DNA from: Methylophilus sp. 42
GTDB lineage: Bacteria; Pseudomonadota; Gammaproteobacteria; Burkholderiales; Methylophilaceae
Assembly: GCF_000384155.1 (NCBI RefSeq)
Contig: NZ_KB913031.1
Span: forward strand, 496,001-560,000
DNA: 64,000 nt
Direction of reading: 5' to 3'
In this document: piece by piece, positions 51,076-53,988 of the stretch
How positions within the stretch are numbered: the stretch's first letter is position 1
Layout: every line of letters begins with the position of its first letter
The notes under the pieces: generated by a model
The model's database searches: none
Told to the model about the DNA's origin: nothing
Seen by the model: the letters and a program-made list of their open reading frames with translations, nothing else
Position numbers and translations under genes: made by a program

Positions 51076-52140
51076 ATGAGTCAATATTGGAGTAAGCTGG
51101 TACACAGTCTGACCCCTTATGTGCCGGGTGAGCAGCCAAAACTGCAAAACCTGGTCAAGCTGAATACCAATGAGAACCCTTATGGGCCTAGCCCAAAAGT
51201 GATTGCAGCGCTGCAGGCGGAGGCAGCTGACAGTTTGCGTTTGTACCCGGATCCGGATTCCAGCCGCCTGAAAGCAGCGATTGCCGAATATCATGGTTTG
51301 CAAGCCAATCAGGTGTTTGTGGGTAATGGCTCGGACGAAGTACTGGCGCATGTGTTTCAGGCCTTGCTCAAGCACGATCAGCCACTGCTTTACCCGGATA
51401 TCACTTATAGTTTCTATCCGGTTTATTGCGGTCTTTACGGCATTGACTTTGAAACAGTGCCATTGAACGCACGGTTTGAGATTGCGATTGACGATTACTT
51501 GCGCCCCAACGGCGGCATTATCTTCCCTAACCCCAATGCGCCGACCGGAATCCCAGTGGCGCTGAGCGAGATTGAACATTTATTAAAAGCCAATACGCAA
51601 TCCGTAGTCGTGATTGATGAAGCCTATGTTGACTTCGGAACCGAGTCAGCCGTTTCTTTGGTGAATCAATATTCCAATGTACTGGTCACGCATACTTATT
51701 CAAAATCGCGTTCTCTGGCGGGCTTACGGGTGGGTTATGCCGTAGGGCATGCGGCGTTGATTGAGGCTTTGATTCGTGTAAAAGACAGTTTCAACTCCTA
51801 TCCGATAGACCGCTTTGCGGAAGCGGGCGCCATTGCCGCCTTGCAAGACGAAGCCTATTTTCAGCAAACCCGCCAGCAAGTGATCGCTGCGCGTGATCAA
51901 CTGGTGCTGGATTTGCAAGGCTTGGGGTTCGAAGTGTTGCCATCTGGCGCCAACTTTATTTTTGCGCGCCATCCAAAATACGCGGGAGAGCAATTGGCCG
52001 CGAGCTTACGTGAACAGGCGGTGATTGTGCGCCACTTTAAAAAACCGGCACGTATCACTGACTTTTTGCGCATTACCATAGGCAACACATCTCAAAATCA
52101 GGCCTTGATGCAGGCATTGCAATCTATCGTGCAGGCTTGA
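51076..52140 (+). CDS. hisC: histidinol-phosphate aminotransferase
   Basis: A 354-residue PLP enzyme. [13 protein letters not shown] start, [18 protein letters not shown] and the PLP-binding Lys in [18 protein letters not shown]. Last gene before hps. Confidence 0.95.
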
Positions 52141-52228: not shown

Positions 52229-52258
52229 TTGTCATTTTTTTGAAAATACGGTTATGAT
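52229..52258 (+). promoter_or_regulatory. sigma-70 promoter of hps
   Basis: TTGTCA (52229-52234), 18-nt spacer, TATGAT (52253-52258). Predicted start about 52265 gives a ~93-nt leader ending in CGGAGGAAG. Confidence 0.65.
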
Positions 52259-52357: not shown

Positions 52358-53239
52358 ATGGCACAAACCCAGATGGCATTGGACTCATTGGATTTCGACG
52401 CAACGATCGCTTTGGCAGCTAAAGTTGCTCCACACGTTGATATTCTGGAAATTGGTACCCCTTGTATCAAACACAACGGTATCGAATTGTTGAAAGCATT
52501 GCGTTCAAAATTCCCTAATAACAAAATTCTGGTTGACCTGAAAACCATGGATGCTGGCTTTTACGAAGCTGAGCCATTCTACAAAGCTGGTGCTGATATT
52601 TGTACCGTTTTGGGTACTGCAGATATCGGTACGATCAAAGGCGTAATCGACGCTGCCAACAAGTATGGCAAAGAAGCGCAAATCGACCTGATCAACGTTA
52701 AAGATAAAAAAGCCCGTACGCTGGAAGTGGTTAAATTGGGTGCACACATTATTGGTGTTCACACTGGTTTGGACCAACAAGCGGCTGGTCAAACACCATT
52801 TGCTGACCTGGGTCTGGTATCCGGTCTGAAAACAGGTGCTAAAGTGTCTGTTGCTGGCGGTGTTAAAGCTGCAACCACTAAACAAGTAGTTGATGCTGGT
52901 GCTGATATCGTAGTTGCCGGTGCGGCTATCTACGGTGCTGCTGACCCAGCAGCCGCTGCAACTGAAATCACCAAGATCGCTCACGGTGCTGGTACTGCCA
53001 CTAAAGGCGGTAACAAATTGCTGCCATGGATCATTGCTGCAGTTGCTGCTGTATTGGTATTCTCTTTGTTGGGCAAAAAATCTGAAGAAGCTGCTCCTGC
53101 TGCTGAAGCACCAGCTGCTGAAGAAGTTGCTCCAGCTGACGCTGCACCTGCTGCTGAAGCCCCGGCTGCCGAAGAAGCTGCTCCAGCTGACGCGGCGCCT
53201 GCTGCAGAAGCTGCACCAGCCACTGAAGAAGCTAAATAA
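52358..53239 (+). CDS. hps: 3-hexulose-6-phosphate synthase with membrane anchor and repeat tail
   Basis: A 293-residue protein. Residues 1-210 are hexulose-6-phosphate synthase, which joins formaldehyde and ribulose 5-phosphate in the ribulose monophosphate cycle: EIGTPCIKHNG, ILVDLKTMDAGFYEAEPFYKAGAD and VHTGLDQQA are the family blocks. Unusually, residues about 224-242 form a hydrophobic helix (WIIAAVAAVLVFSLLGKK) followed by ~50 residues of Ala/Pro/Glu repeats (EEVAPADAAPAAEAPAA and EEAAPADAAPAAEAAPA). Ordinary Hps is about 210 residues and soluble. Strong GGAGGAAG site. Own promoter and terminator, between hisC and hisB. Confidence 0.95.
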   Translation: MAQTQMALDSLDFDATIALAAKVAPHVDILEIGTPCIKHNGIELLKALRSKFPNNKILVDLKTMDAGFYEAEPFYKAGADICTVLGTADIGTIKGVIDAANKYGKEAQIDLINVKDKKARTLEVVKLGAHIIGVHTGLDQQAAGQTPFADLGLVSGLKTGAKVSVAGGVKAATTKQVVDAGADIVVAGAAIYGAADPAAAATEITKIAHGAGTATKGGNKLLPWIIAAVAAVLVFSLLGKKSEEAAPAAEAPAAEEVAPADAAPAAEAPAAEEAAPADAAPAAEAAPATEEAK

Positions 53240-53274
53240 TCGACTGCTATCCTTACGGATCGCTTTCTGATTTG

Positions 53275-53304
53275 AAAAAGCAGCCCATCTGGGCTGCTTT
53301 TTTG
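53275..53304 (+). terminator. terminator after hps
   Basis: AAAAGCAGCCC-ATCT-GGGCTGCTTTT followed by T-run. Confidence 0.93.
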
Positions 53305-53397: not shown

Positions 53398-53988
53398 ATG
53401 TCACGTCAAGCTGAAGTCACGCGTAATACGCTAGAAACACAAATTACCGTCTCGATTAACCTCGATGGCACCGGCCAATCAGACTTGCACAGCGGTTTGG
53501 GCTTTTTAGACCACATGCTGGATCAAATTGCCCGTCACGGCATGATTGATTTAAAGATTCATGCCAACGGTGACTTGCATATCGATGCACATCACACGGT
53601 TGAAGACATTGGCATCACGCTCGGTCAGGCGTTTACCAAAGCATTGGGTGATAAAAAAGGCTTGACCCGTTACGGTCATAGTTATGTGCCACTGGACGAG
53701 GCCTTGAGCCGTGTGGCGCTGGATCTGTCTGGCCGCCCGGGTTTGGCGTTTGATTGCACCTTCACGCGCGCCATGATCGGCGAGTTTGATGTGGACCTGA
53801 TTCATGAATTCTTCCAGGGCTTTGTCAATCATGCACTGGTGACACTGCATATTGATAACCTCAAGGGTCATAATGCCCATCATCAGGCAGAGACCATATT
53901 CAAAGCCTTTGGTCGTGCGCTGCGTATCGCCGCGACCCCAGATCCACGTATGGCAGGATTGATGCCATCTACCAAGGGTGCGTTATAA
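53398..53988 (+). CDS. hisB: imidazoleglycerol-phosphate dehydratase
   Basis: A 196-residue stand-alone dehydratase (no phosphatase domain). [31 protein letters not shown] and [17 protein letters not shown] provide the Mn-binding His residues. First gene of hisBHAFIE. Confidence 0.96.

Follow-up and report, generated by a model that had tools for sequence, protein, structure and literature searches.

A second 3-hexulose-6-phosphate synthase of Methylophilaceae, encoded among histidine genes, carries a putative membrane-docking tail

Methanol oxidation by PQQ enzymes takes place in the periplasm, and formaldehyde must then cross the inner membrane. To our knowledge, how toxic formaldehyde is handled as it enters the cytoplasm of RuMP methylotrophs with a periplasmic methanol dehydrogenase is not settled. 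In the window analysed here, a 64,000 nucleotide stretch of the genome of Methylophilus sp. 42, an open reading frame with an ATG start (52358-53239, forward strand) encodes a 3-hexulose-6-phosphate synthase (Hps) of 293 amino acids, and is placed between two histidine genes. The same genome encodes a second Hps of 210 residues, which has no tail and is located in a tal-hps-hpi operon; the two proteins are 82% identical over their first 205 residues. The locus raises two questions: what the additional C-terminal stretch of the histidine-linked Hps does, and why a second Hps is kept at this place. The genes that mark the locus, with their frequency in the corresponding stretches of relatives, are:

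51076..52140, + strand: hisC, the upstream neighbour (found in 118 of 122 his-locus stretches)
53398..53988, + strand: hisB, the downstream neighbour (found in 117 of 122 his-locus stretches)

The N-terminal part of the protein is a complete Hps. The TIGR03128 RuMP_HxlA profile covers residues 5-207 with 247.1 bits (cut-off 200), and Pfam PF00215 gives a match too. A Foldseek search with an AlphaFold2 model (mean pLDDT 74.9) gave as best matches 3f4w (E 4.1e-20) and 3ajx (E 1.9e-19), both titled 3-hexulose-6-phosphate synthase, with a TM-score by target of 0.89 each. The residues that we take by position to be catalytic, from work on KGPDC and Hps (D9, E31, D60, K62, D65 and H135), are all present and are invariant across a 14-row alignment. 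After residue 205, the top 19-residue Kyte-Doolittle window is 221-239 (mean 2.47; the top window of residues 1-205 reaches 1.52), a hydrophobic span of about 19 residues as expected for a single-pass membrane protein. AlphaFold2 modelled a helix at 221-238, with pLDDT below 50 for residues 239-293. The gene can thus be divided as follows:

52358..52981, + strand: Hps catalytic domain, residues 1-208, a (beta/alpha)8 barrel of the OMPdecase/HUMPS family (TIGR03128, Foldseek)
52982..53017, + strand: Gly/Ala/Thr-rich linker of 12 residues, 209-220, with a basic KGGNK end (pLDDT below 50 at 212-220; K220 invariant in the 14-row alignment)
53018..53074, + strand: predicted membrane helix, residues 221-239 (hydropathy 2.47; AlphaFold2 helix 221-238; pN/pS 0 to 0.39 in five sets)
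53075..53236, + strand: Ala/Pro/Glu-rich disordered tail of 54 residues, with a 17-residue repeat in 2.4 copies, predicted to be periplasmic (pLDDT, repeat, net charge)

The last 54 residues (240-293) comprise 27 Ala, 11 Glu and 8 Pro. The motif AAPAAEA begins at residues 245, 262 and 279, a period of 17 residues, and the underlying DNA is a tandem repeat of period 51 with 2.4 copies and 88% matches. An earlier note on this DNA had described a complete Hps joined to a hydrophobic helix and an Ala/Pro/Glu (A/P/E) tail, and profiles, hydropathy and AlphaFold2 confirmed this architecture. The helix was found at 221-239 and not at the 224-242 first given, and the repeat stood, its number changing from two units of 17-18 residues to 2.4 copies of 17. 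By the strict definition, the helix of a tail-anchored protein lies no further than about 30 residues from the C-terminus, and with 54 residues beyond its helix this Hps falls outside that class. Matches to GltJ, SrfA and YidC (E 0.25-0.66) were weak and were set aside as low-complexity. Elsewhere in the same genome, a 108 amino acid open reading frame (L003, 1480-1806, reverse strand), presumably lipoprotein-like to judge from an LTAC motif, has at its end an A/P/E repeat closely resembling that of the Hps tail (68% over query residues 225-290).

We searched 187 genomes of the family for Hps, and obtained a match in 178. The counts given here refer to 184 Hps copies from 137 genomes, with the same protein never counted twice per genome and with 38 loci (L033-L070) and the second views L181-L190 left out; these copies were taken from among the matches listed or picked by us, and are a non-random set in which close relatives are not independent. 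A copy was assigned to the his locus by a neighbouring his gene, and to the RuMP operon by a neighbouring hpi. The his locus accounts for 122 copies, with both hisC and hisB seen in 113. All 120 complete his-locus copies have a membrane-type tail, 71 of them in the form of the same helix with a long tail, and 49 in the form of a short, unrelated ending (type GGLFGWLKKLFS; short-tail sequence type SGGLFGWLKKLFS). In the remaining two the contig comes to an end, inside the helix for L129 and past it for L322. In contrast, none of the 59 copies with an hpi neighbour, from 54 genomes, has a tail.

In each of the 71 helix-type copies, the hydropathy of the helix segment exceeds that of any window in the copy's own catalytic domain. 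The A/P/E stretch that follows ranges from 26 to 109 residues (median 50, in 58 distinct tails), and its sequence drifts too. Since 71 his-locus copies, the present one included, share this architecture, a frameshift, a sequencing artefact or an accidental fusion could be ruled out. The tailed Hps is a widespread second Hps of Methylophilaceae and not an oddity of one genome. Among named records, the helix type is found in Methylophilus sp. QUAN (L033), the nearest to the present protein at 99% identity, and in Methylotenera MAGs, and the short type in Methylobacillus flagellatus L1B (L047). The ten small-genome relatives that were read (g2, g15) each have a single untailed Hps, which indicates that RuMP growth does not in general depend on docking.

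The tail was found to follow the locus and not the barrel. Barrel identity between the two loci, both of which were read in 38 genomes, is 82-96%, except for one divergent pair at 64%. On a tree of catalytic domains (128 family and 12 outgroup rows, with one open copy and 18 identical rows dropped, later-read copies absent, and the bootstrap not fully settled), the tail types form no clades. The labels call for 7 changes for the helix, 16 for the short ending and 10 for no tail, and well-supported branches force at least 5, 12 and 7 of these changes, respectively. Changes this numerous indicate that tails track the locus and not the lineage of the barrel. In genome G034, a divergent barrel at the his locus has a short tail nonetheless. 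The his locus of genome G046 (L188, 8082-9882, reverse strand) holds two tandem hps genes with no mismatch in their first 629 nucleotides, one ending in the helix and A/P/E tail and the other in the short peptide. This tandem is compatible with gene conversion, with recent duplication or with transfer, and in every such case the barrel would have been exchanged or copied and a tail kept. It is the pattern by locus (120 of 120 against 0 of 59) that carries the argument.

To place the tail in a wider context, Hps was sought in a class-wide sample of 369 genomes, and scored above the cut-off in 6, the present genome included. Families f170 (61 genomes), which we take to be methanotrophs, and f5 (39 genomes) were followed from this sample. 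Neither tail was present in any of 73 full-length rows from the fetched loci of f170, f5 and one f138 genome (77 rows less 4 fragment rows of L224, each row matching at 1e-30, with at least 5 being second views of one gene). These rows end at about 211-215 residues or run on into a hexuloisomerase. The absence from these 73 rows rules out the tail as a general feature of Hps, and as far as sampled it appears to be an invention of Methylophilaceae.

The solved Hps chains 3ajx (207 residues) and 3f4w (211 residues) share the full catalytic domain and fold of the 293 amino acid protein, but are too short for such a tail. A bifunctional Hps-Phi fusion (NF041755; solved as 9lj9) has a C-terminal addition at the same place, although there the addition is a hexuloisomerase and here it is a membrane segment. 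A remnant of such a fusion was rejected, as NF041755 scored 296 bits against the 500 needed and its match ends at residue 215, at position 217 of 391 in the profile. A particulate Hps, said to sediment with membranes, was reportedly described from Methylococcus capsulatus in the 1970s (Ferenci et al. 1974, cited in PMC8879981). This resembles the membrane association proposed here; however, no f170 copy that was read has either tail, and membrane binding of a methanotroph Hps would thus have another cause.

We then asked how far the anchor is conserved. In a clade of 15 relatives (L001, L004-L017; one well-supported clade on the barrel tree, 100/99, identical rows collapsed), the 20-codon anchor gave pS 0.41 and pN 0. 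Counted by codon, 21 of 23 anchor codons vary silently and none changes its residue, with 148 silent and 7 changed codons of 205 in the barrel. These genes were located by the anchor peptide and picked as sharing it, so the zero for the anchor is partly built in. Across whole genera, with the test restricted to copies having a fixed barrel start peptide, pN/pS of the anchor was 0.23 in g1 (21 copies), 0.04 in g7 (5), 0.39 in g18 (17) and 0.19 in g19 (14). The barrel gave 0.04-0.06 across genera (g1 0.06, g18 0.06, g19 0.04). By these ratios the anchor is under purifying selection, but in three of the four genera (g1, g18 and g19) the barrel is constrained more tightly. Weaker constraint would be expected of a generic hydrophobic span, in which hydropathy counts for more than the exact residues, but also of a less critical part.

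The charge around the helix was then considered. Of 58 distinct tails, 57 have the more positive net charge on the N side of the helix, and in one the two sides are equal. With only Lys and Arg counted, the N side leads in 33 tails, the sides tie in 20 and the C side leads in 5, so that the N-in topology rests partly on the acidic tail. The charge pattern favours a barrel in the cytoplasm and an A/P/E tail in the periplasm.

The short ending of the sister lineages follows a Gly-rich linker and is uniform in make-up, being aromatic and hydrophobic with a single basic residue or two. AlphaFold2 modelled it as a helix at 217-224 with low confidence, pLDDT being below 50 at 213-223. Its hydrophobic moment is 0.39-0.62 in 15 distinct endings, a value equalled or exceeded by 4-15% of shuffles of the same letters. 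By this measure its amphipathic character is modest, and the uniform make-up would be the better argument for membrane binding. This ending cannot span the membrane, and its barrel would stay cytoplasmic too. MinD and FtsA have C-terminal membrane-targeting helices, and by description the short tail is like them in being C-terminal, hydrophobic-basic and preceded by a flexible linker; it differs in sitting on a metabolic enzyme.

Good support for the membrane tether put forward in the earlier note comes from the conserved helix, the charge pattern, purifying selection and the fact that sister lineages have, at the same locus and in place of this anchor, an unrelated C-terminal peptide that apparently binds membranes. 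We consider it very likely, as predicted from these features of the sequence, that the his-locus Hps is at the inner membrane with its N-terminus in. The suggestion that the A/P/E stretch is itself a docking tail found no support, given its length range, its drift in sequence and its absence from the 49 complete his-locus copies with the short ending.

The setting of the gene was examined for signals of its expression. Two candidates were identified:

52229..52258, + strand: possible promoter of its own, TTGTCA-18-TATGAT, in the hisC-hps gap (10 of 12 matches; 3 sites in the region, 2.0 expected by chance)
53273..53304, + strand: possible intrinsic terminator between hps and hisB (14-pair stem and T run; 2 sites in the region, 1.6 expected by chance)

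Both scans gave about as many sites as shuffled sequence, and so the argument for a promoter comes from the conserved block: the TATGAT lies inside an invariant run in 18 upstream regions of the genus. The effective number of codons of the his-locus hps is 32.8 for the whole gene and 33.8 for the barrel alone. Six his genes have values of 42.6-52.5, and three genes of the RuMP operon have values of 33.4-38.1. A codon bias far above that of the his genes, and like that of the RuMP-operon genes, suggests a strongly expressed carbon gene lodged in the his operon. The his-locus Hps is probably an abundant protein, expressed from a promoter of its own.

Two HPS genes, hps1 and hps2, have been described at conserved places in Methylophilaceae: the histidine cluster houses one of them, and the other is linked to the genes for HPI and transaldolase (PMC4109929). 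These correspond to the loci of the tailed and untailed pair here, and the terms 'transmembrane', 'C-terminal', 'tail' and 'fusion' are absent at word starts from the main text of that paper. The Hps enzyme and its two loci in this family are thus already known. A membrane-bound, particulate, transmembrane or tailed Hps was also sought in the open-licence literature, and the part covered contains no description of these tails; on that basis the membrane tails, their two designs and their distribution by locus are apparently new.

What would a docked Hps do? We propose that the catalytic type of the his-locus enzyme is unchanged and that its C-terminus would dock it on the inner face of the cytoplasmic membrane. 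In the Methylophilus lineage one membrane helix would serve as the dock, leaving the barrel on the cytoplasmic side and the disordered A/P/E tail on the periplasmic side, and in sister lineages a short C-terminal hydrophobic-basic peptide would take this part. Formaldehyde arriving from periplasmic PQQ methanol or methylamine dehydrogenases would be joined to ribulose-5-phosphate by the docked Hps, and the soluble Hps of the RuMP operon would handle the remainder. As a whole, an isoform docked on the inner membrane face and probably trapping incoming periplasmic formaldehyde is the reading that we favour, and we regard it as reasonably likely. The trapping step taken on its own is a hypothesis that we would hold to be evenly balanced. 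Proximity to a periplasmic methanol dehydrogenase would fit the predicted topology and also the gene content, since the genome has PQQ alcohol dehydrogenase genes, four above the family cut-off and one below.

That two unrelated anchor designs occur at one locus suggests that the place of formaldehyde capture matters to the cell. More tentatively, and at somewhat less than an even chance, free-living Methylophilaceae may have two sites of entry into the RuMP pathway: one Hps in solution, and a dedicated one docked on the membrane to catch formaldehyde on its way across the inner membrane. The docking device would have been swapped between two unrelated designs at one locus, and barrels homogenised or replaced with a tail retained. 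Selection would in that case act on the position of formaldehyde fixation in its own right. A docked Hps would explain why two hps genes are kept in many of these genomes, and as a natural case it would open the question of formaldehyde entry to a test by deletion of a single tail. Synthetic methylotrophs could also take it over as a ready-made module; placing Hps near the formaldehyde source is an engineering aim there, and fusions have been described (PMC8879981).

Membrane docking might also serve another end, such as contact with an enzyme of the membrane, either a source of formaldehyde or a supplier of ribulose-5-phosphate, or the separation of dissimilatory from assimilatory use of hexulose phosphate. 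The data support the location and not the partner, and HPS and HPI are described as serving both assimilation and cyclic formaldehyde oxidation, with the copies not assigned to roles (PMC4109929). However, no candidate membrane partner stands out around the gene in the window, its closest neighbours being his genes; this point is a weak one, as relatives were mostly scored for his, tal and hpi only. We regard docking for such a reason as a serious but unlikely alternative to trapping.

It is improbable that the tail is instead a module for assembly or stability, acting through self-association, clustering or condensates. The A/P/E part is indeed of low complexity and built of repeats, and self-packing of the hydrophobic segment is conceivable, but 19 residues at a hydropathy of 2.47 with basic flanks are typical of a membrane span, and the aromatic-basic end that takes their place in 49 of the 120 complete copies seems to share with them only an affinity for membranes. 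Least probable is that the tail has no role and was left over, neutrally, from a read-through or a fusion. The drift of the A/P/E part in sequence and length and the similar stretch on the lipoprotein-like reading frame would allow this, but purifying selection on the anchor, the restriction of tails to one of two loci, the occurrence of two different tails there, and outgroup copies that end without such a tail all argue against it.

Some copies depart from the common arrangements. Locus L224 (genome G322) has two hps-like places in which matches are split over different frames, reflecting either decay or sequence errors. Two copies counted at the his locus, L128 (G154, helix type) and L146 (G101, short type), have tal upstream and hisB downstream, which suggests either recombination between the two hps loci or misassembly. 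Three further copies with a short tail (L097-L099) have neither a his gene nor hpi as a neighbour and belong to a divergent Hps branch. In L181, L182 and L183 (genomes G177, G052 and G051), a divergent Hps, 61-67% identical, has the short membrane-type tail with no his, tal or hpi gene beside it, and the same three genomes have an untailed divergent Hps in the RuMP operon as well.
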